Positions 6,042-36,494 of a stretch of DNA of 36,795 nucleotides are shown piece after piece (position 1 is the stretch's first letter; the number at the start of each line of letters is the position of its first letter). The notes below the pieces were generated by a model. That model did no database searches, was not told the origin of the DNA, and saw only the letters and a list, made by a program, of their open reading frames with translations. The translations under genes were made by a program, and so were the position numbers. Source of the DNA: Herpetosiphonaceae bacterium (GTDB lineage: Bacteria > Chloroflexota > Chloroflexia > Chloroflexales > Kallotenuaceae); contig DASUTC010000334.1 of the NCBI GenBank assembly GCA_036374795.1, forward strand, positions 1 through 36,795, written 5' to 3'.

Positions 6042-6118
6042 AACTAAACGAACAAAGAACAAAAGTTTAACCCGCTTGTCCCCTTGCTCCCCTGCTCCCC
6101 TGCGCCTTGTTCCCAGGC
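6042..6118. repeat. degenerate 7-bp periodic repeat after the methyltransferase gene
   Basis: Starting 16 bases after the stop codon, units can be read in steps of seven: AACTAAA, CGAACAA, AGAACAA, AAGTTTA, ACCCGCT, TGTCCCC, TTGCTCC, CCTGCTC, CCCTGCG, CCTTGTT. It is one of at least seven copies of a spacer-located family, and among the most diverged. Confidence 0.45.
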
Positions 6119-7847: not shown

Positions 7848-9644
7848 TTACGAGCCAGCCACGAACAGCGCGCCGCTGCACGGCGGCAGAGTCAACTGCT
7901 GACCCTGGTAGTCGACGCCCGTCTCGGTCCGCAGCGCCAGCGGCAGATCGCCGGACAGCGCGACCTGCTGCGCGACGCCGCTTCGATTGAGCGCGACGAT
8001 CGCGCTGCCCGCCGCGCTCTCGATCGCCACGACATACAGGCCAGCGTCGTGCAGGGCCAGTGCCCGCCTTGCGCCGCGCCACAGCGCGGGATGCTGCCGC
8101 CGGAGCGCGATCAGCTGCGTGTAAAACTGCAACACATCGCCGTTCTGCTCCGCGCCCCAGAGCATCGGCCCGCGCGCCTCTTCCATGCGCCGCGATCCAT
8201 CGGGATACTCCAGATCGTGCGTCTGGTTGAGGCCGACCTCGGTGCCGTAGTAGATGATCGGCGGATGCGGCAGCGTAAACTGGCACAGCGCGGCCAGCTT
8301 GAGCCGTCGCACGTCGCCGCCGACCACCCACAAGAAGCGGTTCATATCGTGGTTGTCGAGAAACGACGGCAGCACGAAATCGCCGGGGAAATAGGCCAGA
8401 TGGCGGCGCAGAAAGCTGTCGAAGGCGCTGGTATCGATCGTCTCGAAGGCGAAAAACGCGCGCATATGCTGCAGCAGCAGAAAATCGAGCACGCCGTCGA
8501 GCCGCCCCTGGTACGAGCGCTGTAGCTCAGCCGTCTCTACGATCTCGCCCACGGTAAACGAGCCGGGCTTGAGGGCGCGCGTGGCCGCCCGAAAATGCGT
8601 CCAGAAGCCGTGCGACGGGCCGTTGGCATAGTCCAGCCGAAAGCCGTCAGCGCCCTGCTCAAGCCAATACCTGGCCGCGCCGATGATATAGTCCCGCGCG
8701 CCGGGGCTTTCATTGTTAATCTGCGGCATCGACCTCACGCCGAAGAACGAGCGATACCGAGCGGGCCACTGCTCGAAGGTAAACCACGCGCGTTCGGGAG
8801 CGTCGGGATCGCTGATCGCCCGCTGGAAGGCCGGATGCTCGTCCGAGAGATGGTTGGCAACATAGTCGAGCAGCACGCGCATGCCGCGCTCATGCGCCGC
8901 CGCGAAGAGCTCGCGGAGATCGTCGTCGGTGCCCAGGCGCGGCTCGACATGCAGATAATCGGTCGCGTCGTAGCCGTGGTGCGTGGGCGACGGAAAGACC
9001 GGCGACAGCCAGAGGCAGTTAACGCCTAGCTCCTGTAAGTAGGGCAGCTTCTCGATCACGCCCCGCAGCGTGCCGCCCCAGATGGCGCCGAGCGACTGAG
9101 CGACATGCCAGCTTCGGCCAGCGCCGGGATTGAAGCGATCGACAAACACATGGTAGATCACCGCGTCGCGAATCCAATCCGGCACCCGCTCGCGATCGAC
9201 ATGATAGGCGAAGATGGCCGGCTCGCCGGTCAGCGGATCGGGATCGGCCCACGCCTGGCGTCCGGTGCGCGTCGCCGCCACGATCCGGTAGCGCACCAGC
9301 GTCCCCGCAGGCTGCGGCGGGATCATCCCCAGCCAGACCTGCCGGTAGCCCCACAGCAGCGTATCCCACAGCACCTCGCCGCGCTCAAGCTCAATCCGCG
9401 CCGACTCGGTCGTCGGATCGCTGCCGTCGAGCGTGTAGTAGGCCGTCACCGCGTCGGCGCTGACCTCCGTCCCAACCCGGACGCGCAGTTGCACCGGCTG
9501 CTCCGGCTCCGGGTCGACGGGCGTGATGTCGTGACCATGATGCACGCCGCGCCCCTGAGCCTGAAGCGCCGCCAGCCGCAGATCGTCGGTCGCCATCGTC
9601 CCAAAGATAAAATCTTGCGTAACGTTTGTCGGATTGTTCGTCAT
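7848..9644 (-). CDS. GH13 alpha-glucan hydrolase (maltogenic amylase / neopullulanase type)
   Basis: The protein (598 aa) has an N-terminal beta-sandwich domain (about 35-150; YTLDGSDPTTES), then a GH13 barrel: AVIYHVFVDRF, region I DYVANH, region II GFRLDYAN with nucleophile D338, region III VGEI with acid/base E367, and region IV FLDNHD with D433. A C-terminal beta domain ends at the TAA at 7848. No signal peptide is seen, so it probably acts on imported maltodextrin in the cytoplasm. It is the last gene of a minus-strand binding protein-permease-permease-hydrolase locus. The start used is ATG 9644; a 7-bp repeat tract lies directly upstream and there is only a weak ribosome-binding site. 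Confidence 0.92.
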   Translation of the reverse strand: MTNNPTNVTQDFIFGTMATDDLRLAALQAQGRGVHHGHDITPVDPEPEQPVQLRVRVGTEVSADAVTAYYTLDGSDPTTESARIELERGEVLWDTLLWGYRQVWLGMIPPQPAGTLVRYRIVAATRTGRQAWADPDPLTGEPAIFAYHVDRERVPDWIRDAVIYHVFVDRFNPGAGRSWHVAQSLGAIWGGTLRGVIEKLPYLQELGVNCLWLSPVFPSPTHHGYDATDYLHVEPRLGTDDDLRELFAAAHERGMRVLLDYVANHLSDEHPAFQRAISDPDAPERAWFTFEQWPARYRSFFGVRSMPQINNESPGARDYIIGAARYWLEQGADGFRLDYANGPSHGFWTHFRAATRALKPGSFTVGEIVETAELQRSYQGRLDGVLDFLLLQHMRAFFAFETIDTSAFDSFLRRHLAYFPGDFVLPSFLDNHDMNRFLWVVGGDVRRLKLAALCQFTLPHPPIIYYGTEVGLNQTHDLEYPDGSRRMEEARGPMLWGAEQNGDVLQFYTQLIALRRQHPALWRGARRALALHDAGLYVVAIESAAGSAIVALNRSGVAQQVALSGDLPLALRTETGVDYQGQQLTLPPCSGALFVAGS

Positions 9645-9651
9645 AGCATCC

Positions 9652-9721
9652 CAGTTCCGAGCTCCGAGTTCCACGTTTCAAGTTCGCTGGCTCTCGTTCT
9701 TGGTCCTTGGTCCCCCTTTGT
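9652..9721. repeat. 7-bp tandem repeat tract before the GH13 gene
   Basis: Ten contiguous 7-bp units are readable: CAGTTCC, GAGCTCC, GAGTTCC, ACGTTTC, AAGTTCG, CTGGCTC, TCGTTCT, TGGTCCT, TGGTCCC, CCTTTGT. Pattern similarity continues to about 9751. The tract lies between the malG-like stop and the GH13 start, 7 bases from the start codon. Confidence 0.7.
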
Positions 9722-11779: not shown

Positions 11780-13219
11780 TTACTCGCCCTTAATCGTGGC
11801 AACTTTCTCGCGAGCCGACTCGGCGGCAGCCTTGAGAGCCTCCTCGACCGGCTGATTGCCGGTCCAGATCGCGTTCTGCGCCTCGCCAGCCGGACCCCAC
11901 AGCGCGTCCATGTACGGCGTGTTCGGCAGCGGCACGCCGTTCGCGGTCTGCTGAATGAACGCGGCGATGATCGGATCGTCCTTGACCTGCTCCTGAGCGG
12001 CCTTGTTCGCTGGCACCTGCTTGTTGGCCTCGGCCAGCGCGCCCTGGAACTCGGCGCCGCCGTAGTGCTTCATCAGCGCAATCGCGGCCTCTTCGTTCTT
12101 CGCGCCCGCCGCCAGCATCATCGTCTTGACGCCGACGAACGGCCTCGCGGGCTGGCCGGTTTCGCTGATCGTCGGGATCGGCGCGACGCCGAAGTTGATG
12201 TTCGCCTTCTGCACGTCCGCAGTTGCCCACGGGCCGGTCAGCCAGATCGCGGCCTTGCCCTCGGTGAAGAGCGAGCGCGCCACGTCGGCATCGACCTCTT
12301 TGGGCATGATCGACGAGAACTTCTGGAAGAAGGTACCAGCCTTGATGCTCTCAGGCGTGTCCAGGCCGACCGTGCCGTCTTCGGCGACGTACTGCGCGCC
12401 GTAGCCGTACCACCACGGAGCATTGAAGTACGGCTCGCCGTTGGCGCTGCGCGCCTGATAGACGAAGTAGTAGCTACCCTGGTTGGCCTTGTTGAACGCC
12501 TCGGCCTTCTGGAAGAGCTCGTCGGTGTTCTTGGGCAGCTCGGCCTCCGGCACCAGATCCTTGTTGTAGAAGAGCGCAATCGCCTCCATCGACTCGGGCA
12601 CGCCCCAGATCTGATCCTCGAAGGTCATGGCGTTCACCGCCGTTTCGATGAAGTTCTCCTGAAGATACGCCTTGTCGATGCCCTTGTCGTCGAGCGGCTG
12701 GATCACCTCGGTCAGCGCGTTCTTGCCGATCTGGTCGTTGACCCACGCGATAATGTCGGGACCCTGGCCGGCTGGCACCGCGACATTGACCTTCTGGTTC
12801 AGGTCGGGCACGTTGAGCAGCTCAAGCGTGACGTTGTTGGCCGTGGCGTACTTGCCCAGCTCAGCTGTGATCGCCTCCAGGTAGCTGCCGCCCCACTGGT
12901 GCCAGATTACGACCTTCTGGCCGCCGGAGCCGAGCGAAACCGACGTCGGCGCAGCCGAGGCGGCTGGCGATTCTGCGGCGGCCTCGGATGGCGATGCTTC
13001 TGGTGATGCGGATGCTTCGGCTGAAGCAGAGGCTTCTGGTGATGGGGACGCTTCCGCTGAGGCGGCGGGCGATGCCGACGCGGCGGGCGATGCCGACGCG
13101 GCGGGCGACTCGGACGTGCCACCGGTGGTTGCGCTTGGTGCTGCGCCCTCGCCGCCCCCGCACGCGGCCAGGATCGAGGCGAGCATAATCAACAGGATCA
13201 AAGAAGCAATACGCTTCAT
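11780..13219 (-). CDS. sugar (maltodextrin-type) ABC transporter binding lipoprotein
   Basis: The N-terminus is a lipoprotein signal with lipobox LAAC, so Cys20 would be lipidated. Residues 21-99 are a long low-complexity Ala/Ser/Pro/Glu linker, part of it encoded by an 18-bp tandem DNA repeat, which would tether the binding domain away from the membrane. From about 101 a family 1 solute-binding fold begins (VVIWHQWGG), with PAGQGPDIIAWVNDQIG and GKAAIWLTGPWA typical of MalE-type proteins. AAGGAGAA precedes the ATG. It is the first transporter gene downstream of the ROK regulator; with the two permeases and the hydrolase it forms one locus. The ligand is inferred. Confidence 0.92.
   Translation of the reverse strand: MKRIASLILLIMLASILAACGGGEGAAPSATTGGTSESPAASASPAASASPAASAEASPSPEASASAEASASPEASPSEAAAESPAASAAPTSVSLGSGGQKVVIWHQWGGSYLEAITAELGKYATANNVTLELLNVPDLNQKVNVAVPAGQGPDIIAWVNDQIGKNALTEVIQPLDDKGIDKAYLQENFIETAVNAMTFEDQIWGVPESMEAIALFYNKDLVPEAELPKNTDELFQKAEAFNKANQGSYYFVYQARSANGEPYFNAPWWYGYGAQYVAEDGTVGLDTPESIKAGTFFQKFSSIMPKEVDADVARSLFTEGKAAIWLTGPWATADVQKANINFGVAPIPTISETGQPARPFVGVKTMMLAAGAKNEEAAIALMKHYGGAEFQGALAEANKQVPANKAAQEQVKDDPIIAAFIQQTANGVPLPNTPYMDALWGPAGEAQNAIWTGNQPVEEALKAAAESAREKVATIKGE
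13063..13116. repeat. 18-bp tandem repeat in the lipoprotein linker
   Basis: Three consecutive 18-bp units of the type CGGCGGGCGATGCCGACG: the first two are identical and the third has a few changes. They encode the SASPAA repeats of the linker, in frame, and could vary in number without breaking the gene. Confidence 0.85.
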
Positions 13220-18562: not shown

Positions 18563-18633
18563 GAGAGAACAAGCGAGCAAGCGAACAAGGGAAGAACGAA
18601 CTTAAGCCAAGGCTTTTGGTGCTTGGTTCTTCG
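18563..18633. repeat. 7-bp periodic repeat upstream of the membrane-protein gene
   Basis: GAGAACA, AGCGAGC, AAGCGAA, CAAGGGA, AGAACGA and ACTTAAG read in steps of seven, followed by the inverted version TTGGTGCTTGGTTCTTCG. It precedes the membrane-protein start at 18655 and shares TTCTTCG-GACAGGCGA-GGGAGA with the tract near 9747-9772. Confidence 0.5.
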
Positions 18634-18654: not shown

Positions 18655-19941
18655 ATGGAGCAATCATATCTGAAGCGGCAACCGACGACGCTGGCGCAAG
18701 CGGAACGCCGCTGGCACTGGCTGCGGCACCGCCTGCTGCACTGGGAGCATCCGCTCTGGAGCGCGCTGCTTGCGATGGCAGCCTACACGATCATCGCCGC
18801 GAAGCACGGCTCGCTCTGGCATGCGTCGGAGTACGCCTATTTCAACTACCTCGCCGATGCGCTTCTGCACGGGCAGGTACATCTGCGGGTCACGCCAGCC
18901 AGCATCCACGATCTGAGCGTCTTCGGCGGGCGCTACTACCTCTACTGGCCGCCCTTCCCGGCGCTGGCGCTGCTGCCGTTCGTCGCGGTGTGGGGCGTGG
19001 GCGTCAGCGATATTCTGCTGACGATCGGCGTCGGCGGCCTCAACGTGGCGCTGGTCGCGCTGCTGCTGCGCCACGCCAGCGCGCGCGGTATCATCGCGCT
19101 GTCGTCGCTGCAACGCGGGCTGCTGGTGCTCTTCTTCGCGCTCGGCACGACACACACCGCTCTCGCGCCGTACGGGAGAGTCTGGTACACCGGCCAGCTT
19201 GTGGGCTTCGCGTGTGTGGCGCTGGCCTACCTGGCGGCGATCGATCTGCGGCGGTCGGTGGCGTTTCTCTGCGCGGGTCTGGCGCTCGGCGGCGCGCTGC
19301 TGACGCGCAACCATCTGGTCTTCGCCGGGCTGTGGCCCGCCTGCTACCTGCTGTGGCGGCACTGGCAGGAGCCGTCCGAGCGCGGCTGGCGCTTGTTCGG
19401 CTACGTCCTGATCGGGATCGGGCCGGTGATCCTGGCGGTCACGCTGCTGGGCATGTACAACTGGCTGCGCTTCGGCAGCGCGCTCGACAACGGGCTGGCC
19501 TATCACCGTATGTCGGCGTTCTTTGCGCGCGACTACCAGCGCTACGGCGCGTTCGATCTGCACTACCTGCCGATCAACCTCTTCTATCAATTCGTGGCCT
19601 ACCCGTTCCCGTGGCGACCGGGGAGCGACATGGGCGGCAGCCTGTTCGTGCTCAGCCCCGTCTTTTTCGCCGCGCTCTGGGGTATCGTCGTCGGGCGTCC
19701 GCGCTGGTCGGTCTGGGCGCTGCTCGCGACGATCCTGCTGGTGGCGGTGCCGATTTTATTGCTGATGGGCACCGGCTGGCGGCAGTTCGGCCCGCGCTAC
19801 ACGCTGGATTTTACGGTGCCGCTGCTGCTGCTGACCGCGCTTGGTATCCGGCGCTGGCCGCTCTGGCTCATCGGCCTGCTGACGGCGATCTCTGTGCTGC
19901 ACTACCTGATCGGCTCGGTCTATCTCGGCGATGTGATTTAA
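18655..19941 (+). CDS. polytopic membrane protein, possible GT-C type glycosyltransferase
   Basis: The protein (428 aa) starts at ATG 18655 with GGGAGAGG upstream. It has a short basic cytoplasmic N-terminus and about nine to ten membrane helices. After the first helix a periplasmic loop contains EYAYFNYLADALLHGQ and then GGRYYLYWPPFPALALLP, a layout seen in family 39-like GT-C mannosyltransferases. A clear DxD or other catalytic signature is not visible, so the function is only suggested. It is convergent with the small helical protein gene, and repeats of two families and a hairpin fill the space between them. Confidence 0.7.
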   Translation: MEQSYLKRQPTTLAQAERRWHWLRHRLLHWEHPLWSALLAMAAYTIIAAKHGSLWHASEYAYFNYLADALLHGQVHLRVTPASIHDLSVFGGRYYLYWPPFPALALLPFVAVWGVGVSDILLTIGVGGLNVALVALLLRHASARGIIALSSLQRGLLVLFFALGTTHTALAPYGRVWYTGQLVGFACVALAYLAAIDLRRSVAFLCAGLALGGALLTRNHLVFAGLWPACYLLWRHWQEPSERGWRLFGYVLIGIGPVILAVTLLGMYNWLRFGSALDNGLAYHRMSAFFARDYQRYGAFDLHYLPINLFYQFVAYPFPWRPGSDMGGSLFVLSPVFFAALWGIVVGRPRWSVWALLATILLVAVPILLLMGTGWRQFGPRYTLDFTVPLLLLTALGIRRWPLWLIGLLTAISVLHYLIGSVYLGDVI

Positions 19942-19991
19942 GCGAGCAAACAAAGAAGAAAGCGGCGCAAGGCCGGGGGTGTCCCCCATCA
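19942..19991 (+). repeat. 3'-end GC-rich element (copy C) preceded by 7-bp-type sequence
   Basis: Right after the stop codon come AGCGAGC, AAACAAA, GAAGAAA and then GCGCAAGGCC-GGGGGTGTCCCCC-ATC. The second part is the short form of the element found at 9774-9811 and 26022-26060, again downstream of a gene and in the same orientation relative to it. Confidence 0.6.
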
Positions 19992-20000
19992 ACGCTTACG

Positions 20001-20031
20001 CCCCCTCTCCTACCGCAGTGAGAGAGGGGGG
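20001..20031. terminator. GC-rich hairpin between convergent genes
   Basis: CCCCCTCTC and GAGAGGGGG form a perfect 9-bp stem with a 12-nt loop. Hairpins of this CCCTCTC type are dispersed in many bacterial genomes, so it may be a mobile REP-like element serving as a bidirectional terminator. Confidence 0.55.
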
Positions 20032-20040
20032 TGAGGGCCT

Positions 20041-20068
20041 GCAACCTGGAACTCGGAACTCGAAAGCC
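20041..20068. repeat. short 7-bp repeat tract
   Basis: Four units in register: GCAACCT, GGAACTC, GGAACTC, GAAAGCC. It lies 15 bases from the stop codon of the small helical protein on the other strand. Confidence 0.6.
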
Positions 20069-21995: not shown

Positions 21996-22070
21996 TCCCC
22001 GATAGCTCAATGGTAGAGCGGCTGACTGTTAATCAGTAGGTTCCAGGTTCGAGCCCTGGTCGGGGAGCCA
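21996..22070 (+). tRNA. tRNA-Asn (anticodon GTT)
   Basis: A full cloverleaf: acceptor TCCCCGA / TCGGGGA, D arm GCTC-GAGC, anticodon stem CTGA / TCAG with loop CTGTTAA (anticodon GTT at 22028-22030), T arm CCAGG-TTCGAGC-CCTGG, discriminator G, and encoded CCA. Confidence 0.97.
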
Positions 22071-22619: not shown

Positions 22620-22711
22620 GGAGGGATCGCATAGTCTGGCCTAGTGCGCGGCACTGGAAATGCCGTACGGCGGTAACGTCGTCGTGGGTTCGAATCCCAC
22701 TCCCTCCGCCA
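22620..22711 (+). tRNA. tRNA-Ser (anticodon GGA)
   Basis: Acceptor GGAGGGA / TCCCTCC, anticodon stem CGGCA / TGCCG with loop CTGGAAA (anticodon GGA at 22656-22658), the long variable arm expected of a class II tRNA (GGCGGTAACGTCGTC region), T arm GTGGG-TTCGAAT-CCCAC, discriminator G and encoded CCA. Confidence 0.97.
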
Positions 22712-23916: not shown

Positions 23917-24663
23917 TCAAGCGCTTCTGCGCGCCAGCGCCAGCACCGACAGCCCGCACGGAAAGCGACCGCCACGCCGCAGCCAGGCCGCCTCTGTGTA
24001 CATTGCCGTTCCAAGCGCCGCGTTCAGCAGCGGGCTAGGCAGTTCGAGATCGGAGCCTGAGCGCTCCAGATCCGGCAGCACCCGCTCGACCAGCCGCTGA
24101 AGCACCGGGATCGGCAGCAGGAGGCTGTTGATGTACGATATGCGCTCCACCTGCAATCCCGCCTCCGTCAGCAGCGACCGCACCTCGCGCGCCGTGTAGC
24201 GGTGCCGCCCATGTACCGAGCGATCGTGCTTGGACGAGAGCCAGCGATAGGCCGGAAGCCGCACCAGGAAGCGACCGCCGTGCCGCAGCACGCGCACCGT
24301 TTCGCTGAGCGCCTCCCGCTCGTCGATCACCGCGCGATGGTACAGCACGTCGAACGATGTCACCAGATCAAATGCCTCGTCGGCAAATGGCAGCGCAACC
24401 ACCGAGCCGCGTGTCAGCCTGCCCGGCAGCCGACGCTGCCCGAACTGGATCGCCAGCGGTGCCAGATCCAGCCCCGCGACGCTGCCGTAGCGCTGGAGGA
24501 ACTCGCCGTTACCGCCCGTGCCGCAGCCCGTATCGAGGATTCGTAAATCGCGCCGCTGCTGGTAAGCCAGATCCAGCCAGGAGGCCGTGATCGCGCGCAT
24601 GCCCCGATACCACCAGTGCGCGTCTTCCACAGCGGCCATGATCTCGTATTCGATCTGTTCCAT
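23917..24663 (-). CDS. class I SAM-dependent methyltransferase with WWYRG motif
   Basis: The protein (248 aa) begins with the EDAHWWYRGMR signature often seen in methyltransferases of surface-glycan clusters. Motif I is RILDTGCGTGGNGEFL, then VAGLDLA, VALPFADEAFDLVTSFDVLYH and RVLRHGGRFLVRLPA. The C-terminal third has a weakly hydrophobic patch (INSLLLPIPVLQRLV). Placement after an aminotransferase and next to another methyltransferase suggests modification of an amino sugar or glycolipid; this is inference. A 158-base repeat-filled spacer separates it from the aminotransferase gene. Confidence 0.88.
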   Translation of the reverse strand: MEQIEYEIMAAVEDAHWWYRGMRAITASWLDLAYQQRRDLRILDTGCGTGGNGEFLQRYGSVAGLDLAPLAIQFGQRRLPGRLTRGSVVALPFADEAFDLVTSFDVLYHRAVIDEREALSETVRVLRHGGRFLVRLPAYRWLSSKHDRSVHGRHRYTAREVRSLLTEAGLQVERISYINSLLLPIPVLQRLVERVLPDLERSGSDLELPSPLLNAALGTAMYTEAAWLRRGGRFPCGLSVLALARRSA

Positions 24664-24664
24664 A

Positions 24665-24822
24665 CAATCTCAGAACACAGAGCCAAGAACCAAGGGAAAA
24701 CCAGGAACCGGGTGCCAGGCGGGTGCCCTGCGGGTGCCCTCTGGGCATGGGCACCCGGCATGGGCACCCGGCGCACCAAGAGCCGAAGATCGAAACTCTG
24801 AACTTGGAACTTGCAACTCCGT
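24665..24822. repeat. mixed repeat block: 7-bp tracts flanking GGGTGCC direct and inverted repeats
   Basis: Both ends read in 7-bp steps (GAACACA, GAGCCAA, GAACCAA, GGGAAAA; and GAAACTC, TGAACTT, GGAACTT, GCAACTC). The middle has three GGGTGCC copies (two of them GGGTGCCCT-type) and then two GGGCACCC copies in opposite orientation, able to form a strong stem. CCGGGTGCCAG is shared, inverted, with the spacer near 35650-35661. Confidence 0.6.
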
Positions 24823-25964
24823 TATTGCCCCATCACATCGCGAATCGCCGCCGCCACCGCCTCGACTTCCGCGCGCGTCAGCTCAGGGAAGCACGGCAGC
24901 GACAGCACCGTCTCGGCCAGCCGCTCCGTCACCGGCAGCTCGCCCGGCTCGTAGCCCAGATCCTCGAAGGCGGGCTGGAGATGCGTCGGTAGCGGATAGT
25001 GAATATCGGTGCCGATGCCGCGCTCCGTCAGTGCTTGGCGCAGCGCATCGCGCCGACCGCTATGCACCTGCACCACAAGCAGGTGATAAACATGTCCGGC
25101 GACATCTTCCGGCAGCGTCAGGCCGGACACGTCGCCCAGCAGCTCGCGGTACCAGGCCGCCCGCTCGCGGCGCAGATCATTCCAGCGCGTGAGATGCGGC
25201 AGCTTGCAGCGCAGCAGCGCCGCTTGCAGCTCGTCGAGCCGCGAGTTGATCCCGCCCGCCACGGTGCTATGGTACTTACGCTCCCAGCCGTAGACGCGCA
25301 GCTTGCGCAGCGTATCGGCCAGCGCGGCATCATCGGTGACGATCGCACCGCCGTCGCCGAGCGCGCCAAGGTTTTTGGTCGGGTAGAACGAGAAGCAGCC
25401 CAGCCGCCCGATCGTCCCGGTCATCCGTCCGCCGACGGTCGCGCCGTGCGATTGCGCGCAATCCTCAACTACTGGCAGGCCGTGGCGCTCCGCAACCGCC
25501 ATGATCTCGGCCATCGGCGCGGGATGGCCGTACAGATGCACCGGCATGATCGCTCTGGTACGCGGCGTGATCGTCGCCTCCAGCGAGCCAGGCGACAGCG
25601 CATGCGCCCGATCGTCCACGTCGGCGAAGCGCGGCGTTAGCCCCGCCTGCCGGACGGCAACCGCGCCGGGCACGCCCGCATTAGCGACCGTCACCACCTC
25701 GTCGCCGGGCTGCACGCCGAGCGCCCGCAGCGCCAGATGCAGCGCCTCGGTGCCGTTCCCGACCGAGACGCAGTGCGCGACGCCGCAGAACTGCGCAAAC
25801 TCGGCCTCGAACGCCTGCACCTCAGGCCCCAGAATATACCAGCCGCTCTTGAGCACCCGCGCCGCTGCGGCGTCAAGCTCGTGTTGCAGCGCCTGATACT
25901 GACGAACCGAGTCGCCGAAAGGCACGCGGCTTACGGATCGCTCTCGCGATGATTGTAGCGTCAT
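24822..25964 (-). CDS. DegT/DnrJ/EryC1/StrS family sugar aminotransferase
   Basis: The protein (380 aa) is a PLP enzyme that transaminates keto groups of nucleotide sugars. Seen are VGNGTEALHLALRALG (cofactor phosphate site), PVHLYGHPA, VVEDCAQSHGA with D168 contacting the PLP ring nitrogen, and SFYPTKNLGALGDGGAI with K197 as the Schiff-base lysine. NSRLDELQAALLRCKL and DIHYPLPTHLQPAF are typical of the family. ATG 25964 has AAGGTGG upstream. With the epimerase at 28069-29070 it could make an amino or deoxyamino NDP-sugar for the glycan cluster. Position of the amination is unknown. Confidence 0.94.
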   Translation of the reverse strand: MTLQSSRERSVSRVPFGDSVRQYQALQHELDAAAARVLKSGWYILGPEVQAFEAEFAQFCGVAHCVSVGNGTEALHLALRALGVQPGDEVVTVANAGVPGAVAVRQAGLTPRFADVDDRAHALSPGSLEATITPRTRAIMPVHLYGHPAPMAEIMAVAERHGLPVVEDCAQSHGATVGGRMTGTIGRLGCFSFYPTKNLGALGDGGAIVTDDAALADTLRKLRVYGWERKYHSTVAGGINSRLDELQAALLRCKLPHLTRWNDLRRERAAWYRELLGDVSGLTLPEDVAGHVYHLLVVQVHSGRRDALRQALTERGIGTDIHYPLPTHLQPAFEDLGYEPGELPVTERLAETVLSLPCFPELTRAEVEAVAAAIRDVMGQ

Positions 25965-26060: not shown

Positions 26061-28094
26061 TCAAAGCGGCGTGTGGCGTTTGATCAGCAGGTAGAAATGC
26101 CCGCGCTGCGCCACCTCAAACGCCAGAAAACACAGGACCATCAGCACCGCCGCGCGACCGGCCCAGCCGCGCCGCCACCAGCGGCTCAGCACATAGCCGG
26201 ACCAGATCGCCACCAGCGGCATCATAAAGAAGACATGTTTGAGCACCATATCGGCGACGAACGCGCTGACCAGGCTGTACAGCACAAAGATGCCCAGCCA
26301 CGCGCCCCAGATCGGCCACCAGCGCCGCGTGTGTGCCTGCTGCGCCAGCCCAAGCCCGCCCAGCCCGGTCAGCACCAGCAGCAGCGGCGTGAAATGCCCG
26401 ACCGTAAACTGATTGTTGGCGGCGAAGTTAGCCAGCGGATTTTCGCGCGCCTCGGCGGCGGCGTCGAGCGGATTGTCAGCCCGATCGGCGGTGCCCGAAA
26501 CGATCGCCGGAAGCGTGTCCATCACGATCGCCTCGGCAAACTGAACATGATAGATCGCGAAGCAGAGGAGCTCGGCTGCCAGCAGGCCGGTGACGATGAA
26601 GCGCAGCCGCTTACGGCCAAGGCCGCCGCGCTGAAATAGCCCAAAGATCCCGATCATCATAAAGAGCGTCACCGAGAAGACGCCCAGCACGGTGTAGGAG
26701 AGGATCGCCAGCGCCAGCAGCGCAACCCAGATCCCGAAGGTGCGCCACGAGATCGTATGCTGCGCGAAGCGCTGGTAATGCACCGCCAGAAACGCGGTCG
26801 CCAGCAGCGCCGCCCACAGGCCGAACTGCGTCGGATAGTTGCCCCACGACAGCAGAAAGTAGGGCATCGGCAGCAGGTTGTAGAGCGCGGCGGCATAGAG
26901 CGCCGTGCGCCGTGAGCTGGTGGTCACACGGGCGATCAGATGGATCGGGAAGAGCTTGGAGACATCCATCAGCGCGCTCAGGCCGTTGGTCGCATCCGGC
27001 AGCCCCAGGCCCAGGAACGAGAACGGCACCACGACGAGATACCACAGCGGCGAGTACGGAAACTGCCCGCCGCCCAGCCCGACCGTATCGCCCATGTACG
27101 AGGTATAGCCGGGCCGGTACAGCTCCATGAAGCGACCTTCCAGGAGCCAGTTCATGCGCAGCACATGCGCCGCCTCGTCAAAGATGATCACGTGGGGATA
27201 GAGCATCCCGCCAAGCTTGACCAGCGTCGCGGCGACGAAGATGCGCCACAGCCAGCGCTCCTCGTCGGCGGCCAGGGGCACATCGGCACGATCGTAGATC
27301 GCGCGTGCCACGCGGCGCAGCGGCCACAGCGCGACATGCAGGCCCAGCACGATCGCCAGCCAGTAGACCAGGCCGATCGTGATCAGCAGCCGGTTGGTAA
27401 ACAGGCCGTAGATCGCGCTTGAGACAATCAGCAGCGCCAGCAGCGCGCTCACATCTGGCCGCAGGGCCAGCCGCCGCGCCAGCCCGTACAGGCCCAGCGA
27501 GATCGCCAGGATCATCGCTGCCGCGCGCAGAGGCAGGCCCGGCGTGAGCGATCGGACGGCAAAGGTATCAACCGGAATGCCAAGCTGACGGGGATCACGC
27601 TCGCTAGGCTGGAACGGATTGGCGACAATCCGCGCGTCGAGATCGCCGCTGGTGGACGGCACCAGCACATGGTACGAGCGCAGGCCGTTCGAGGGCTTGA
27701 AGCCCACCGGCGTCTGCGGCGCGCCGAAGAAGACGCGCGCGGGGTCGGCCTCCGCCGGTCGCACGCCGTCGAAGCGTAGCGTCGTCGCGAACACGCCGCT
27801 GCCAGCGCCGCCAAGAAAGATCTGCGCGCGCGCGCCGCTGAAAGCGTAGTTGTAGTCCGCGTTCTTCTCCGGCTGGTTGAAGCCGCGCAGATAGGCGCGC
27901 GCATAGGTCGTGCCCAGATCGACCCGGAGCGTCTGCGGCAGGCGATAGACCAGCGCCAGCGCGAGCAGCACCCACGCCGCAATCAGCGCGACGCTCAGCA
28001 GATCGGGCTGCCAGGTCCAGCCACGTCTCGCGGCGGCGGCTCTGCGGTCGAGCGCATCGCGCGTCAGGCTACCAGTAAAACTGTCGGTGTTCAT
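26061..28094 (-). CDS. large polytopic membrane protein, GT-C-like, of the glycan cluster
   Basis: The protein (677 aa) has a basic N-terminus, a first helix near residues 31-50, an extracytoplasmic beta-rich segment to about 190, then roughly ten to twelve helices. The loop after helix 3 or 4 holds IFDEAAHVLRMNWLLEG and FPYSPLWYLVVVPF, and later comes SWGNYPTQFGLWAA and KHVFFMMPLVAIWSGY. These motifs recur in the 663-aa protein at 29165-31156, so the two are paralogues. The layout fits GT-C transferases or oligosaccharide-handling membrane proteins, but no catalytic residue is certain. Its start overlaps the end of the epimerase gene by 26 bases, indicating translational coupling. Confidence 0.78.
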   Translation of the reverse strand: MNTDSFTGSLTRDALDRRAAAARRGWTWQPDLLSVALIAAWVLLALALVYRLPQTLRVDLGTTYARAYLRGFNQPEKNADYNYAFSGARAQIFLGGAGSGVFATTLRFDGVRPAEADPARVFFGAPQTPVGFKPSNGLRSYHVLVPSTSGDLDARIVANPFQPSERDPRQLGIPVDTFAVRSLTPGLPLRAAAMILAISLGLYGLARRLALRPDVSALLALLIVSSAIYGLFTNRLLITIGLVYWLAIVLGLHVALWPLRRVARAIYDRADVPLAADEERWLWRIFVAATLVKLGGMLYPHVIIFDEAAHVLRMNWLLEGRFMELYRPGYTSYMGDTVGLGGGQFPYSPLWYLVVVPFSFLGLGLPDATNGLSALMDVSKLFPIHLIARVTTSSRRTALYAAALYNLLPMPYFLLSWGNYPTQFGLWAALLATAFLAVHYQRFAQHTISWRTFGIWVALLALAILSYTVLGVFSVTLFMMIGIFGLFQRGGLGRKRLRFIVTGLLAAELLCFAIYHVQFAEAIVMDTLPAIVSGTADRADNPLDAAAEARENPLANFAANNQFTVGHFTPLLLVLTGLGGLGLAQQAHTRRWWPIWGAWLGIFVLYSLVSAFVADMVLKHVFFMMPLVAIWSGYVLSRWWRRGWAGRAAVLMVLCFLAFEVAQRGHFYLLIKRHTPL

Positions 28095-29070
28095 GATAAA
28101 ACGCCAGGGTCCGCGCCAGACCTTCGCGCAGGTCGACCTGCGGACGCCAGCCGAGTCGTCCTTGAATCAGGCGGTAATCGCCGTAATAATCGCCGATGTC
28201 GATCGTCTTGCGGTCGGCTGGGAACGGAATCAGCTCATAGCTGCCGGAGCCGTTCAGCTCGATCAGCAGTTGGGCCAGATCGCGCAGGTTGATCGTCTCG
28301 TCCGCACCCAGGTTGAAGATCTGCCCGTTCACGCCGTCGGTCGCCGCCGCCAGCAGCAGCGCCTCGACCACGTCGTCCACATAGTTGAGATCGCGGATCT
28401 GCAAGCCGTCGCCAAAGACCTTGATCGGCTGCCCGTCGATCAACTGCTTGATCCAGATGCCCAAAAAGGTCTGCCGCGCATCCTTGACGCGCATCCGAGG
28501 GCCGTAGGTGTTGGTCAGGCGCAGCGCGCAGGCTTTGATGCCGTAGACGTTGTTATAGACGATGTGATACCACTCGCCGGCCATCTTGTTGATGCCGTTG
28601 ACATCGGTCGGGTGGAGCAGATGCCGCTCATCGACCGGCAGATAGTCGGGCTTGCCGTAGATCTGGCGCGTGCTGGCATAGACGATCCGCACATCGGGAT
28701 TATGCTTGCGACACGCCTCAAGAATACTAAGCTGCGCGCGGCAGTTGATCTCCAGATCGGTGTACGGATCGTGCATCGAGTCGAGATGGCTGGTCTGCCC
28801 CGCCAGATTGAAGAGATAGTCCTGGCCCTGCACGAGATAGTTCATCGAATACTCGTCGCGGACATCGGCGATGTTAATCCGCACCCGATCGCGGTCCAGA
28901 TGCTCGGCGTTGCGCAGGTTGCCGCCATACTCCGGGATCAGCGAGTCGACCAGCGTCACGTGTGCGCCTAGCTCCACGAGCCGCCCCGCCAGGTTCGAGC
29001 CGATAAAGCCCAGTCCGCCGGTGATCATGCAGCGCTTATCGGCAAACGATGTGTGCTCTGTGCTATTCAT
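28069..29070 (-). CDS. extended SDR NAD-dependent nucleotide-sugar epimerase/dehydratase-like protein lacking the catalytic Tyr
   Basis: The protein (333 aa) has the NAD-binding GGLGFIGSNLA (residues 18-28), acidic LVDS at strand 2, and NLAGQTSH. The family triad is altered: Ser is present (VYASTRQIYG), Lys162 is present (NGINKMAGE), but the YxxxK tyrosine is Asn158. LRLTNTYGPRMRVKDARQ and GQIFNLGADETINL fit sugar-nucleotide binding. I recall a conserved subfamily with VNGINKMAGEWYH, so the change is probably fixed in the lineage and not decay. Start is ATG 29070. It lies between the two paralogous membrane-protein genes in the cluster. Confidence 0.9.
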   Translation of the reverse strand: MNSTEHTSFADKRCMITGGLGFIGSNLAGRLVELGAHVTLVDSLIPEYGGNLRNAEHLDRDRVRINIADVRDEYSMNYLVQGQDYLFNLAGQTSHLDSMHDPYTDLEINCRAQLSILEACRKHNPDVRIVYASTRQIYGKPDYLPVDERHLLHPTDVNGINKMAGEWYHIVYNNVYGIKACALRLTNTYGPRMRVKDARQTFLGIWIKQLIDGQPIKVFGDGLQIRDLNYVDDVVEALLLAAATDGVNGQIFNLGADETINLRDLAQLLIELNGSGSYELIPFPADRKTIDIGDYYGDYRLIQGRLGWRPQVDLREGLARTLAFYHEHRQFYW

Positions 29071-29083
29071 AGGTGCTCGTACA

Positions 29084-29160
29084 AGGTTCCACGTTTCAAG
29101 TTCCACGTTTCAAGTTTCAAGTTTCAAGTTTCGAGTTCCAAGTTTCGAGTTCTTGGTTCT
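29084..29160. repeat. eleven contiguous 7-bp repeats (best copy of the family)
   Basis: Units in exact register: AGGTTCC, ACGTTTC, AAGTTCC, ACGTTTC, then AAGTTTC three times, GAGTTCC, AAGTTTC, GAGTTCT, TGGTTCT. Consensus is RNGTTYC, 77 bp in total. It fills almost the whole spacer between the 663-aa membrane protein stop (29165) and the epimerase start (29070). Confidence 0.95.
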
Positions 29161-29164
29161 CCGC

Positions 29165-31156
29165 TTACAACGTTTCCAGCGACCAGACATACCAGGCCAC
29201 GCGCAGCAGCCACGCGCCCAGGCTGGTCCACAGCAGGTACCCGAACAGCGCGAAGACCAGCGCACGACCCGCCCGGCCCCGGCGCTGTATCTGGCCGAGC
29301 AACGGCCCGGCGGCCAGGCACACGCCCGGCAGCGCGAAGTACATATGTTTATTCCACAGCCCGAAGCGCAGATCGGCGACGGCGGTCAGGATCAGAAAGA
29401 TACCATATGCCAGGGTAACATGCGTCAGCCAGCGATCGCGCCGGTGCAGCGCCAGGAGCACGCCGAGCGCCGCCAGCGCCGCGACGATCGCGCGGTAGTG
29501 GCCCCAGAGCTGCTGCCAGACATTGCCGAGCAGCGGACCCGGCAGCAGGCTCGCATCCCGGCCAACGCTGCCTCCCTGGCTCAGCGTGGCGATGTAGTTT
29601 GGGATCGTCCTGCCGATCAGTTCGGGAAGCTGCGCGCCGTAGTAGCCGAGCAGCGCCAGCGCGAAGCCAAGCGCCGCGCCCAGCCCGATCCGGCGGCTCA
29701 CCTGCCGCACCCGCCCGACGCCCCACAGCCACGCACTCGCCGCCGCCAGGCCAAGCACCGCAGGGACGAACGCGAGATGCGTCACGTACATCAGGATGCT
29801 GAGCGTGATCGTCGTTGTCGCCGCGGCCCACAGCCACCAGCGCGGACGATCGGCGAAGCGCGTCAGCAGCCAGAGCGCCACCACCATAATCCACACGCCG
29901 ATGATCGTCGGATAGCTGCCGTCGTGGAAGTAGAGATAGCCGACCGGCAGCGCCGCGAAGAGCGCCGCCGCCCACCAACTGCTGCGCGCGTCCAGGCCGC
30001 CGCGCCGGGCGATCCCCCACAGCAGCAGCACCACGCTGGCATCCAGCGCCGAGGTAACACCTTCGACCGCCGCCAGCAGTTGCGGTGTTGACAGCCAGCG
30101 AGCCAGCGGCACGAACAGATCGTAGCTCAGCAGCGAGTAGGGCACGACAACGTCGCTGCCCCACTCGTACTGCTGGCTCAACTGCGCCTGCACCCGCGCG
30201 CGACCACCACCGGCCATCGCCTTGATCTGATTCACCCGCAGCGTATGATCGATCTGGACGAACTGCGGATGCTGCATGCCCACAAAGCGCACGACAAACA
30301 AGCCCAGCGCCACGACGGCGACCGCTCGCGCCCAGGGCCGTGCCCGTGGATCTTGCCGACGCAGCCATAGCCACAGCGGAGGCAGTGCGATCAGACTCAG
30401 CGGCAGCGTCCGGTTGAGCAGCGGCAGCGCGATCAGCAGATCGATCCGCAGCCAGGCTAGCAGCAGCAGGGCCAGCAGCAGCAGCGCCCCAACGCCGAGG
30501 CCAGTCCAGCGCGTCGGCGTGCCGAGCAAGCGCAGCGGAACCACCAGCAGCAGCAGACACAGCGCCACACTCCACTGCACATTGGTTGGTGGCTGCGCGG
30601 CGCTGAGCTGCTCCAGCCACAGCCCGCGCACAGCAATGCCCAGCCTGCGACTCCCGGCATCCAGCGGCGGCTCGGCCCGTATGGTCAGATCGAGATCGCC
30701 GCTCGTGCCGTCGATCAGCGCCGCAGGCAGCGCGATCGACACCTGCTGCCAGCCGGGCCGCAGCGCGTAGGCTCCAAGCTGGTGCTTGCCGACGCCAACC
30801 GTGAGCGTGCGCGGCGGATCGACGCTCGGATTATGAAAGAGCAGCGTCACCTGATAGCCTGCCCGCCCAACGCCCGGAAAGCGGATCAGCGTTGAGGGCG
30901 CGCTCCAGCGATGCCAGCCGTTCCCGCTCGACTCGGCCTCGCCCAGTCCGCTCCGATGCAGCCCGTCGTGGTGCTCGATCGGCAGCGCGTACGCCAAACG
31001 CTGGCGATAGCTCCATGTGCTGCCGACGATCAGCAGCAGCGTCAGGCTCAGCGCCAGCAGCAGATCGGCGGCCAGGCTGCGCGCCAGGGTAGGCCGGTGG
31101 ATCTGTGGGCGGACGAGACGCATAGCTGAGCGGCTGATTGATCGACCTTCGCTCAT
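29165..31156 (-). CDS. large polytopic membrane protein, GT-C-like, paralogue of the 677-aa protein
   Basis: The protein (663 aa) has one helix at about 29-48, an extracytoplasmic beta-rich domain to about 205, then eleven or so helices. Shared with the protein at 26061-28094 are HTLRVNQIKAMAGG (HVLRMNWLLEG there), YSLLSYDLFVPL (YSPLWYLVVVPF), AAALFAALPVGYLYFHDGSYPT (the other has AAALYNLLP and GNYPT), and KHMYFALPGVCLAAG followed by RRGRAGRA. It probably acts on lipid-linked sugars or glycan transfer in the membrane. Fifteen bases separate it from the GT2 stop. The function is inferred from layout and context only. Confidence 0.78.
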   Translation of the reverse strand: MSEGRSISRSAMRLVRPQIHRPTLARSLAADLLLALSLTLLLIVGSTWSYRQRLAYALPIEHHDGLHRSGLGEAESSGNGWHRWSAPSTLIRFPGVGRAGYQVTLLFHNPSVDPPRTLTVGVGKHQLGAYALRPGWQQVSIALPAALIDGTSGDLDLTIRAEPPLDAGSRRLGIAVRGLWLEQLSAAQPPTNVQWSVALCLLLLVVPLRLLGTPTRWTGLGVGALLLLALLLLAWLRIDLLIALPLLNRTLPLSLIALPPLWLWLRRQDPRARPWARAVAVVALGLFVVRFVGMQHPQFVQIDHTLRVNQIKAMAGGGRARVQAQLSQQYEWGSDVVVPYSLLSYDLFVPLARWLSTPQLLAAVEGVTSALDASVVLLLWGIARRGGLDARSSWWAAALFAALPVGYLYFHDGSYPTIIGVWIMVVALWLLTRFADRPRWWLWAAATTTITLSILMYVTHLAFVPAVLGLAAASAWLWGVGRVRQVSRRIGLGAALGFALALLGYYGAQLPELIGRTIPNYIATLSQGGSVGRDASLLPGPLLGNVWQQLWGHYRAIVAALAALGVLLALHRRDRWLTHVTLAYGIFLILTAVADLRFGLWNKHMYFALPGVCLAAGPLLGQIQRRGRAGRALVFALFGYLLWTSLGAWLLRVAWYVWSLETL

Positions 31157-31171
31157 GAACCTGGCACGTCG

Positions 31172-31960
31172 CTAGCCATTGCTCGTCGTCGCCTCAAGCG
31201 CGGCGAGACGCTCGCGGATGCGCTGAAGATGCTCGCGGCGAATCACCAGCTTCCACCAGAGCTTGATCAACTGCGGAGGAATCCGGCGCAGCCGCCGAAA
31301 GTTGAAAAATTGCGACGTGCCGTAGGTTCGATGGTAATGATGCACGGGCACCTCCGCGAAGCGGAATCCGGCGTCTTGCAGCTTTTTAACCAGCTCCAGA
31401 CAGATCGTGCCGTCGGGCGACTCCAGATCGATCACGTCGAACACCTGACGCCGGATCAGCCGGAAATCACAGTCGACATCGCGCAGCCTAAAGCCAAACA
31501 TCAGCTTGACGCCGTGATGATAGAGCCGCCCGATGATCTTGCGGTGCAGCGGGTCTGAGCGGCTGATCTTGTAGCCATTGACCACATCGACGCCTGGCTG
31601 CATCTGCGGCACCAGCAGCTTCAGCTCGCGCGGATCGTACTGTGCGTCGCCGTCGGTATAGAAGATCAGATCCTTGGTAGCGCTGGCAAAGCCCACGCGC
31701 AGCGCGCCGCCGTAGCCCAGGCTGTAGCGATGCGTCAGCACCCGCAGCCGATCGTACTGCTGCGCCAGATCCTCAAGCACCTCGACGGTGTAATCGGTGC
31801 TGCCGTTCTCCACCACAATCACTTCGTAATCGTCGGTCAGCTCTGCCAGGGTATGCAGCGTCGTCACGACCAGGCTGCCGATCGTGCCGCCGTCGTTGTA
31901 GGCCGGGAAAAACGCCGTGATGCTTGGGCGTTTGGCATCAGAAAGATTCGCTGTCGTCAT
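31172..31960 (-). CDS. GT2 glycosyltransferase, polyprenyl-phosphate sugar synthase-like
   Basis: The protein (262 aa) is a GT-A transferase: ITAFFPAYNDGGTIG, VIVVENGSTDYT, LIFYTDGDAQYDPREL with the DxD-type metal site, DVVNGYKISRSDPLHRKIIG and DVDCDFRLIRR. No C-terminal membrane domain is present, though a basic C-terminal tail may attach to the membrane. The start is ATG 31960; the frame is open to 32134 but those residues look non-family. A TATAAT (31976-31971) ends 10 bases from the ATG, so the mRNA may be nearly leaderless. It is the first gene of the minus-strand glycan cluster and likely loads the first sugar on a lipid carrier. Confidence 0.9.
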   Translation of the reverse strand: MTTANLSDAKRPSITAFFPAYNDGGTIGSLVVTTLHTLAELTDDYEVIVVENGSTDYTVEVLEDLAQQYDRLRVLTHRYSLGYGGALRVGFASATKDLIFYTDGDAQYDPRELKLLVPQMQPGVDVVNGYKISRSDPLHRKIIGRLYHHGVKLMFGFRLRDVDCDFRLIRRQVFDVIDLESPDGTICLELVKKLQDAGFRFAEVPVHHYHRTYGTSQFFNFRRLRRIPPQLIKLWWKLVIRREHLQRIRERLAALEATTSNG

Positions 31961-33899: not shown

Positions 33900-35627
33900 A
33901 TGGAATCGCGTACGTCGGACAATCAGGCAGGCTTCGTCGTGCCAACCGGTATTCTTACATTCGTGCTGCTGGCCGCTCTGGCATTCCTGGGCATGTACCA
34001 GATGGAGCCGCCCAGAGCAGCCAGCCTGGATGCCGCGCCGACCGAGTTTTCAGCCGCGCGAGCGCTCCAACATCTTGAGATCATTGCCCAACATCCCCGT
34101 CCGGTCGGCTCAGCAGAAAACACCAAAGCCCGTGAGTATATCGCCGCGGAGTTGACGAAGCAGGGCCTCCAGCCGGAGTTTCAGACCGCCACCGTCACGC
34201 GCACGCTGCGCAACGGTCAGGAATCTTCCGCTACGATCGAGAACGTGATGGCGCGGCTCGAAGGCACGGGCGGCGGCAACAATGCCGTAATGATCGCGGG
34301 CCACTACGACAGCGTCCAGCGCGGGCCGGGCGCGAGCGATGATATGTCCGCCATCGCCGCGATGCTCGAAACGCTCCGCGCGCTGCGCGTCGGCCAGGCC
34401 CCGGCTAACGATGTCATCTTCCTGTTCACCGATGGCGAAGAGCGCGGGCTGCTGGGCGCGAAAGCGTTCGTGGAGGAGCATCCCTGGGCAGATGATGTGA
34501 ACGTCGTGATGAACTTCGAGGCGCGCGGCACGACCGGCCCGTCCTATATGTTCGAGACGAGCGACAACAACGGCTGGCTGATCAGCCAGTTTGCCAAGTC
34601 GCCGTATCCCGTGGGCTACTCGTTCACCTACGACATCTATCAACTGCTGCCGAACGATACGGATCTCACCATGTTCCGCCAGGCGAACATGCCGGGCTTT
34701 GGCTTTGCCTTTATCGACGGCTTCGTCCACTACCACATGCCGACCGACAGCGTCGCCAACCTGAACCCGCGCACCTTGCAGCACCACGGATCGTATATGC
34801 TGGGCCTCGCCCGGCAGCTTGCGAATACCAGCCTCGACAACACCAGCGCGCCCAACCGCACCTACTTTAACATCCTGGGCTTTGTCGTCCACTACTCGCA
34901 GGCGCTCAATCTACCGCTGATGATCCTGACGGCGATCCTCTTTGTCGGCGTGATCGTGCTCGGCTTCCGGCGTGGGCGGCTGACCATCAGAGGCGTGATC
35001 GGCGGCTTCTTTATCTTTTTACTGGTCCTGATCGCCAGCCTGCTGGGCGTGTACGCGCTCTCGTTCCTGCTGCTGCTGATGAACGCACAGCCGATCAACA
35101 TGCTCAACGGCGCGACCTACAACTGGCAATACTTCACCATCAGCTATATCGCCCTGGCGCTCGCGATCACCTCGGCGCTCTACGTCTGGCTCCGCAGGCG
35201 CGTCCTGCTGAACAATCTGATCGTCGGCGCGTGGCTGTGGTGGCTGATCGTCCTGGTAGCCACCACGTTTGCGCTGCCAGGCACCAGCTATCTGTTCACC
35301 TGGCCGCTGATCTTTGGTCTGATCGCGCTGGCGGTTAAGTTCACGGCGCGCGATGAGGATGCGCCCAGAGTTACGCTGCTGCTGGTGCTGCTCCCGGCGA
35401 TCAGCGGTCTGCTGCTGCTGACGCCGCTGATCCGTGGCCTCTTCGTGGCGCTGTTCCTGCCGCTGTACGTGCCGGTGCTGTTCTTTGTGGTGCTGCTCTT
35501 CGGGCTGCTGCTGCCGCACCTGATGCTGATGACCAGCCGCAGCCGGTGGGTGCTGCCGATCGTATCGGCGCTGGTGGGCCTGAATCTGCTGATCTTCGCA
35601 GGCCTGACCGCTGGCGCGGGTGTGTAA
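33900..35627 (+). CDS. M28 family metallopeptidase with a C-terminal multi-helix membrane domain (ERMP1-like layout)
   Basis: The protein (575 aa) has an N-terminal helix (about 14-33), then an extracytoplasmic M28 domain: AGHYDSVQRGPGASDD (H135, D147), TDGEERGLLGA (E180, E181), NFEARG (E207) and HYHMPTD (H279). All residues expected for a two-zinc aminopeptidase are present. From about 340 to the end there are some eight membrane helices. The same order (anchor helix, M28, membrane domain) is known from eukaryotic ERMP1/Fxna. AAAGGAAC precedes the ATG. It may degrade peptides at the outer face of the membrane; the role of the membrane domain is unknown. Confidence 0.92.
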   Translation: MESRTSDNQAGFVVPTGILTFVLLAALAFLGMYQMEPPRAASLDAAPTEFSAARALQHLEIIAQHPRPVGSAENTKAREYIAAELTKQGLQPEFQTATVTRTLRNGQESSATIENVMARLEGTGGGNNAVMIAGHYDSVQRGPGASDDMSAIAAMLETLRALRVGQAPANDVIFLFTDGEERGLLGAKAFVEEHPWADDVNVVMNFEARGTTGPSYMFETSDNNGWLISQFAKSPYPVGYSFTYDIYQLLPNDTDLTMFRQANMPGFGFAFIDGFVHYHMPTDSVANLNPRTLQHHGSYMLGLARQLANTSLDNTSAPNRTYFNILGFVVHYSQALNLPLMILTAILFVGVIVLGFRRGRLTIRGVIGGFFIFLLVLIASLLGVYALSFLLLLMNAQPINMLNGATYNWQYFTISYIALALAITSALYVWLRRRVLLNNLIVGAWLWWLIVLVATTFALPGTSYLFTWPLIFGLIALAVKFTARDEDAPRVTLLLVLLPAISGLLLLTPLIRGLFVALFLPLYVPVLFFVVLLFGLLLPHLMLMTSRSRWVLPIVSALVGLNLLIFAGLTAGAGV

Positions 35628-35675: not shown

Positions 35676-35710
35676 GCAACTCGAAACTCGAAACCAGGAG
35701 CAAGGAGCAT
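35676..35710. repeat. 7-bp repeat tract that overlaps the next start codon
   Basis: Units GCAACTC, GAAACTC, GAAACCA, GGAGCAA, GGAGCAT read in register; the last includes the A and T of the reductase ATG at 35709. The GGAG motifs in the last two units are the only ribosome-binding sites available. Confidence 0.75.
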
Positions 35711-36494
35711 GCAGCAGCTATCGCGCATCGCGGTTGTCACCGCAGCCGCAGGCGGCATCGGACGAGCGACCGTCCGGCGCTTGCTGGCGGATCGATTCGC
35801 CGTCGTCGCCGTGGACGTGGATGCCGCCGCGCTGGACGAGCTGAAGGCCGCCGCGTCCACGGACGCGCTCCAGACCATCGTCGGCGACATGACCAGCGAG
35901 CACGATGTCGCGCGCGTCTTTGGGCAGGTGGCGCAGGCCGGGCCATTGGCGGCGCTGATCAACGGCGTTGGATCGACCTGTAGCAGCGAGCTGCGCGCGC
36001 TTTCGCTTGACGACTGGCAGCGGCTCTTCGCGCTCAACCTGACCAGCGTCTTTTTGTGTACGCGGGCGGCGCTGCCGCTGCTCGAAGCGGCCAGCGGCGA
36101 TCGGGTCATCGTCAACCTCTCGTCGACCCTGGCGCAGGTCGCCGATCCGCAAACCCTCGCCTATGGCGCCTTCAAGGCCGCGCTGGAACACCTGACGCGC
36201 GCGCTGGCGTTGGAGGTCGCGCCGAGCGGCATTCGCGCGATTAACGTCGCGCCGGGTCCCGTGGCGGCCACAGGCGGCGAGGCCGCCTTTGAAACCGACG
36301 ACTTCGCGCGGCTCAACCCGCTTGGCCGCTTCGCCACCGTCGACGAGATCGCGGCAGTGATCGCGTTTCTAGCCTCGCCGGACGCGGCCTACATCACCGG
36401 CACCACCATTCGCGTCGACGGCGGCGACTCGGCGCTGGGCGCTGGCTGGGGTCCGCTCCAGGCAGTGCGGAGCGCGCGGCGACAGCGCGATTGA
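35709..36494 (+). CDS. short-chain dehydrogenase/reductase (FabG-like SDR)
   Basis: The protein (261 aa) is a classical SDR: VTAAAGGIGRATVRRL (the usual TGxxxGIG with its first Gly changed to Ala), VDVDAAALDEL, INGVGS in place of NNAG, catalytic Ser in NLSSTLAQ, and Y-G-A-F-K in LAYGAFKAALEHL. The C-terminus reads ITGTTIRVDGGDSALG, like 3-oxoacyl-ACP reductases. An acidic residue after strand 2 suggests NAD(H) preference. The substrate is unknown. It lies 81 bases after the peptidase stop; its ribosome-binding site lies in a 7-bp repeat tract. Confidence 0.92.
   Translation: MQQLSRIAVVTAAAGGIGRATVRRLLADRFAVVAVDVDAAALDELKAAASTDALQTIVGDMTSEHDVARVFGQVAQAGPLAALINGVGSTCSSELRALSLDDWQRLFALNLTSVFLCTRAALPLLEAASGDRVIVNLSSTLAQVADPQTLAYGAFKAALEHLTRALALEVAPSGIRAINVAPGPVAATGGEAAFETDDFARLNPLGRFATVDEIAAVIAFLASPDAAYITGTTIRVDGGDSALGAGWGPLQAVRSARRQRD

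Follow-up and report, generated by a model that had tools for sequence, protein, structure and literature searches.

We found that the short tandem arrays at gene junctions of this Herpetosiphonaceae genome are best read as dispersed insertion-type repeats that have been remodelled by slippage and are tolerated at junctions, a reading to which we give a probability of about 0.55. By period, placement and occurrence at many loci the arrays belong to the bacterial intergenic heptanucleotide repeats, a class already known from cyanobacteria, Xanthomonas and Beggiatoaceae. New in them are the anchor, a spacing of 7 or 8, composites with palindromes, the lack of orientation bias and a species-specific unit. 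Heptanucleotide repeats are known from scattered bacterial groups and have no agreed origin. The clade studied here offers a comparative test, with congeners carrying different heptamers, an array-poor relative of the same family and shared ribosomal-operon junctions, so that the constant part (the 7-nt step and the placement at junctions) can be separated from the changing part (the unit). The question raised is how a single unit came to occupy hundreds of loci within a species.

Repeat arrays in the window

The window, that is, the whole 36,795-nt stretch of DNA that was analysed, contains the following arrays.

29084-29160, minus strand: target array of eleven 7-bp units, reading GTTYC on the plus and RAAC on the minus strand
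24665-24822, plus strand: composite element in which the GC-rich palindrome H2 (about 24708-24774) has GAACC-type units on its left and RAACTTG units on its right
9652-9721, minus strand: array of GTTYC and CTTGGTC units upstream of gene 7848-9644 (minus strand)
6042-6118, no strand assigned: degenerate GAACAAA-type units, then an inverted CTTGTTC/CCTTGCTC part, directly after the stop of 4848-6026 (plus strand)
18563-18633, no strand assigned: upstream of 18655-19941 (plus strand), 8-bp units GAACAAGC followed by TTGGTGC/TTGGTTC units in inverted orientation
20041-20068, plus strand: short GGAACTC array after 18655-19941 (plus strand)
35676-35710, plus strand: AACTCGA array between 33900-35627 and 35709-36494 (both plus strand)

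The target array takes up the 94-nt spacer that separates genes 28069-29070 and 29165-31123 (both minus strand); it is made of block C units (defined below) and ends on the right in a single block-B unit. It had been recognized from the sequence alone as a 7-bp tandem array, and this was confirmed by TRF (period 7, 8.4 copies, at 29093-29151) and by a maximum lag-7 identity of 30/35. The composite element fills the spacer between 23917-24663 and 24822-25925 (both minus strand), and its H2 core has copies elsewhere in the genome at 80-94% identity. The same junction holds a different composite in the congener G304 and plain spacers in the relatives G303, G302 and G150. All seven regions of the window beat 2000 dinucleotide shuffles (p ~0.0005 each) when 19942-19962 and 20041-20068 were scored jointly as 19942-20068. 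The further tracts listed in the sequence-only reading were thereby upheld, except that 19942-19962, near 20041-20068, is weak when taken alone. For 6042-6118 and 18563-18633 the best score was at lag 8, not 7. The window also holds 18-bp tandem repeats at 12993-13108, inside the coding region 11780-13219 (minus strand), and two tRNA genes, at 21996-22067 (Rfam RF00005, 71.9 bits) and 22620-22708 (RF00005, 53.3 bits).

A shared anchor across the genome

Our genome comprises 7.75 Mb in 373 contigs, and the triple (RNGTTYC)x3 matched it 397 times, against 7 matches for the reversed control pattern. A fragmented assembly might suggest chance low-complexity sequence or an assembly artefact; this is scarcely credible in view of the excess over the control, the shuffle results and comparable structures in the separate assemblies G304, G233 and G225. 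A motif-free period search over 743 kb, on contigs picked for having matches, gave 77 regions at lag 7, 30 at lag 8 and 0-10 at each of lags 5, 6, 9, 10, 12 and 13; the sample is biased to array-bearing contigs, and the comparisons used are internal to it. The periodicity found against shuffled sequence in the window was accompanied by a lag-7 excess in this larger sample.

The anchor RAAC (GTTY on the other strand) was shared at spacing 7 by 76 of the 77 period-7 regions, and anchor-to-anchor spacing in the genome sample was 7 in 453 cases and 8 in 157. Because RAAC is carried by 76/77 regions and recurs at a spacing of 7 or 8, we take it to be the constant part of the unit; the variable part, NNN, differs from array to array. 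The consensus RNGTTYC drawn from the window does recur genome-wide, with only the tetramer RAAC/GTTY invariant in it, and the statement that the period is kept holds for the maintenance of a step, which is 7 or 8 and not always 7. Reversal of the sequence gave no useful control for RAAC chains, since RAAC is still present in GAACAAA when it is read backwards. Arrays range from about 20 to 170 bp and are built from 7-8 bp tandem units that fall into block A (GAACAAA/GAACAAGG), block B (GAACCAA/GAACCGA) and block C (RAACTTG/RAACTCG).

Neighbouring units are homogenized: within arrays, NNN identity falls from 0.72 between neighbours to 0.40 at unit distance 6, a decay consistent with the expectation for slippage. 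Purely local replication slippage, in which every array expanded at its own site from a small seed without copying between loci, would produce such a decay, and a preference of polymerase slippage for the 7-nt step is a proposal cited in PMC4679880 and PMC4692102. As a complete account it is unlikely: independent seeds should yield many units per genome, yet 76/77 regions share one anchor. Furthermore, congeners share other units genome-wide, and the composites with palindromes have a fixed order.

Placement at junctions and in coding linkers

The arrays sit where extra DNA is tolerated, namely in spacers and in a few in-frame protein linkers. The proposed family at gene junctions proved to be genome-wide, with 68 of the 77 motif-free period-7 regions intergenic; regions at lags 6, 9 and 12 were nearly all coding. 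Among 180 anchored arrays, 161 were intergenic and 19 lay mostly in called genes, as judged by a simple home-made gene caller, for which reason start codons are uncertain. The sequence-only reading had placed all tracts between genes and none inside, which is true of the window; genome-wide, these 19 depart from it. In our genome, the linkers of nonribosomal peptide synthetase (NRPS) adenylation domains contain at least two in-frame arrays, and a carbon-nitrogen hydrolase gene contains one, at the position that an array has in G304 too. In two NRPS adenylation domains the array-derived peptide lies between RLVAY and a DYMVPSAF-type motif, within AMP-binding_C. The in-frame repeat elements in NRPS adenylation domains of our genome and G304 are as follows.

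L170:442-533
L170:3780-3856
L224, near 8811

Arrays were present at 14 of 79 divergent, 16 of 78 convergent and 74 of 406 tandem junctions, with no difference between these classes (chi2 p = 0.88). Their orientation relative to flanking tandem genes was 42:32 (p = 0.30), that is, unbiased, and their distance to stop and start codons was often tens of bases. In ribosomal operons, arrays were found after L2 and at the S3-L16, L6-L18 and S13-S11 junctions. A role as terminators was rejected, as arrays are not commoner at convergent junctions and sit inside ribosomal operons.

Spacer gain at conserved junctions

The arrays add length at conserved junctions. Compared with G150, the array-poor relative of the same family, of which 1.2 Mb was sampled, array spacers were longer in our genome by a median of 40 nt over the only 14 informative conserved junctions with arrays, against a median of +2 nt for array-free spacers (n = 59; one-sided p = 0.0008). 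Neither RNGTTYC nor RAACCRA had a match in G150, and another heptamer had only 4. The clearest gain was a 96-nt spacer filled by 12 units in our genome versus a 9-nt gap in G150. In this form, as longer spacers at conserved junctions, occupied and empty sites are seen between relatives. At L166:13829-14019, the cleanest case, neither a target-site duplication nor a terminal inverted repeat was seen, and flanks have usually diverged. It counts against insertion that, at several junctions in ribosomal operons, relatives without the RNGTTYC-type unit have hairpin spacers of similar length; some of the turnover may thus reflect replacement and not insertion.

The target junction is a breakpoint, because the epimerase gene adjoins the gene at 31172 in G304, G303, G302 and G150, and gene 29165-31123 intervenes between them only in our genome. 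This intervening gene is PMT_2-like, with a Pfam match below the cut-off. A general tie of arrays to synteny breaks was rejected, adjacency being kept at 14/15 array and 59/61 array-free junctions (Fisher p = 0.49).

Turnover of the unit between species

The unit differed between species, each represented by one genome; G302 and G303 were compared mainly over ribosomal operons, and the G304 assembly has 1240 contigs and is 80% complete. Triples of RNGTTYC numbered 397 in our genome, 2 in G302 and 0 in G303 and G304. Triples of RAACCRA numbered 48 in G304, 32 in our genome and 0 in the others, and those of GCTGANN 53 in G302, 5 in G303, 4 in G150 and 0 in our genome, G304 and controls. At S3-L16, GAACAAA in our genome stood against AGCTGAA/AGCTGAT units in G302 and G303, and at L6-L18 we found AAGGATG units in G303 and GAACCTA/GAACCAA in G304. 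Two genomes from another class of the phylum, G233 and G225, use GGAACNN and GGAACTT, respectively, in many cases as inverted pairs; G145 and G161, which belong to the genus of G233, are array-poor.

The sequence-only reading had suggested constraint on spacing, on a bound protein or on an RNA fold. A platform for a heptamer-reading protein (or small RNA), its spacing kept for cooperative binding, would fit the strong conservation of the anchor inside the species. We consider it very unlikely, because the unit is replaced between congeners, neither orientation (42:32) nor junction type (p = 0.88) is preferred, and arrays also occur in coding linkers. A step that stays constant while the unit changes speaks against a fixed binding protein, and the use of other words by related species at comparable sites makes the arrays look like a spreading, tolerated filler and not like binding sites of one protein.

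Palindrome composites and RNA folding

The blocks GAACAAA, GAACCAA and RAACTTG/RAACTCG occur singly, in inverted pairs or combined with GC-rich palindromes. A frequent composite has A or B, a GC-rich palindrome and then C on one strand; alternatively, A is combined with inverted A. Spacers with arrays are enriched in two kinds of palindrome, H1 (GGGTGAGGGCC type) and H2 (GGGTGCC...GGCACCC type), and palindrome cores are dispersed in the genome at 80-94% identity. In G304 an array lay within 150 nt of H1 in 13/13 cases, 12 of them in the same orientation, where ~6% is expected by position alone; the association held in 13/20 cases in our genome. H1 copies numbered 37 in our genome, 94 in G304, 7 in G301 and 2 in G150. 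The inner H1 hairpin varies in sequence yet keeps its self-complementarity, and both H1 and H2 adjoin heptamer arrays in fixed orientation.

Strong folding was seen in inverted pairs (n = 11, mean z -3.6) but neither in direct composites (n = 15, mean z 0.1) nor in the target spacer (z 0.09). The suggestion of constraint from an RNA fold was not borne out as a general rule, strong folding being confined to inverted pairs. More broadly, the arrays could be arms of intercistronic RNA hairpins that serve processing, stabilization or termination, with the stem selected, the sequence turning over and the heptamers as building material. The folding of inverted pairs agrees with this, and at L6-L18, S13-S11 and S3-L16 the corresponding position in relatives is occupied by inverted repeats whose sequences are unrelated; the arrays of G233 and G225 also come as inverted pairs. 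In a further case, listed here, a variable part of a leader holds an inverted A/A' array, the place of which is taken in G150 by a GC-rich hairpin:

L158:1345-1696: T-box-like pheS leader (36 bits with RF00230, short of the Rfam cut-off of 93)

We nevertheless regard hairpin arms as a doubtful account of the arrays at large. Array and non-array spacers overall did not differ in fold scores (p = 0.32), convergent junctions are not preferred, and the unfolded direct composites and target leave hairpins unsupported as a general function. Mirrored co-expansion of the two arms was also rejected, as arm units were no more alike within loci than between them. Because folding is strong in inverted pairs and absent from direct composites and the target, a hairpin role is possible for the inverted subset only, which may have been retained as intercistronic hairpins.

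The S13-S11 spacer, L166:13829-14019, with orthologs in L328, L334, L336 and G150, has a conserved outer inverted repeat (CGCAGTTCTCAGTTC.CAATCCACAAGTGG ... GATTTGTGAATTGTGAA.TGCG) around a variable middle. This outer repeat, common to our genome, G302, G303, G304 and G150, is partly heptameric and may serve the S11 gene as a structured leader.

Proposed dispersal of the unit

Hundreds of loci share one unit per species and congeners share another, and from this we infer copying between loci. Under the preferred reading of dispersed repeats, the unit would have been copied from locus to locus, either by mobilization in trans or through template switching or gene conversion. The copies would then have been remodelled by replication slippage with its preferred 7-nt step, and would persist through near-neutrality at junctions. 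Reverse transcriptase and RAYT were rejected as drivers of dispersal. RVT_1 (PF00078) had no match in our genome or G304, with which other polymerases remain compatible, and intact Y1_Tnp (PF01797) was absent from our genome, which has only a 52-aa fragment; G304 has a full match.

Since independent slippage alone is insufficient, the choice is between copying and a sequence-specific mutational activity. A bolder reading has a candidate sequence-specific activity that writes or spreads a species-specific heptamer (RAAC-NNN; GCTGA-NN in a congener) into hundreds of junctions, with the word swapped between congeners and the 7-nt step kept, as if by a templated or enzyme-defined repeat-writing system. 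We hold this idea to be speculative and distinctly unlikely.

Relation to known repeats

The short tandemly repeated repetitive (STRR) sequences of heterocystous cyanobacteria are degenerate 7-bp tandem units between genes. The suggested kinship with them holds in kind: both are degenerate intergenic tandem arrays of 7-bp units, the units differ, and we know of no palindrome composites in STRR. We also found no literature description of an RNGTTYC unit in Chloroflexota, as had been stated, although this is weak evidence of absence. Eukaryotic foldback elements have a middle part flanked by inverted arms that consist of short tandem subrepeats. The arrays of G233 and G225 and our inverted type likewise have subrepeat arms around a middle, but our arrays are far smaller, with no target duplications or transposase shown. 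The integron attC core, RYYYAAC, is a misfit, as the base before AAC in our arrays is a purine.

TAACTGA heptamers, mostly intergenic 7-nt direct repeats, occur in marine Beggiatoaceae, some cyanobacteria and Bacteroidetes, with 169 sets in one draft genome, and in Beggiatoaceae most sets are directed at the start codon (PMC4679880). Our arrays resemble them as 7-nt direct, mostly intergenic repeats that are patchy across phyla with many sets per genome. They differ in the unit RAACNNN, the absence of orientation bias (42:32, p = 0.30), the 7/8 spacing and the palindrome composites; on unit and orientation, membership in the TAACTGA family was rejected. The GGGAATC repeats of Xanthomonas and GGGGA(T/C)T of Nostoc are intergenic, over-represented, G-rich and G-quadruplex-forming (PMC4692102), and work cited there reports heptanucleotide over-representation among long SSRs. 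Our arrays share with these the over-representation of intergenic heptamers and a length that varies between close relatives at the same junctions, but their unit is not G-rich and changes between congeners. The H1/H2 cores resemble in kind the REP/BIME elements with RAYT (PMC3733652), which are small dispersed intergenic palindromes in many copies; unlike in that system, our genome has no intact Y1 transposase, and heptamer arrays are not part of REPs.

No H1-type palindrome lay near cross-phylum AAACTTG arrays (0/119 loci), which rules out spread of the whole composite across phyla and indicates that only heptamers recur. The AAACTTG unit itself recurs across bacteria, among them Desulfonema, Rhodopirellula, Flavobacterium and Acidobacteria. 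Loci L031-L149 hold it in unrelated phyla, with many arrays in Desulfonema magnum and others in Rhodopirellula, Stieleria, Flavobacterium, Acidobacteria and Catenovulum, and several of these loci contain other heptamers too, such as AATTCTC and AATTATC.
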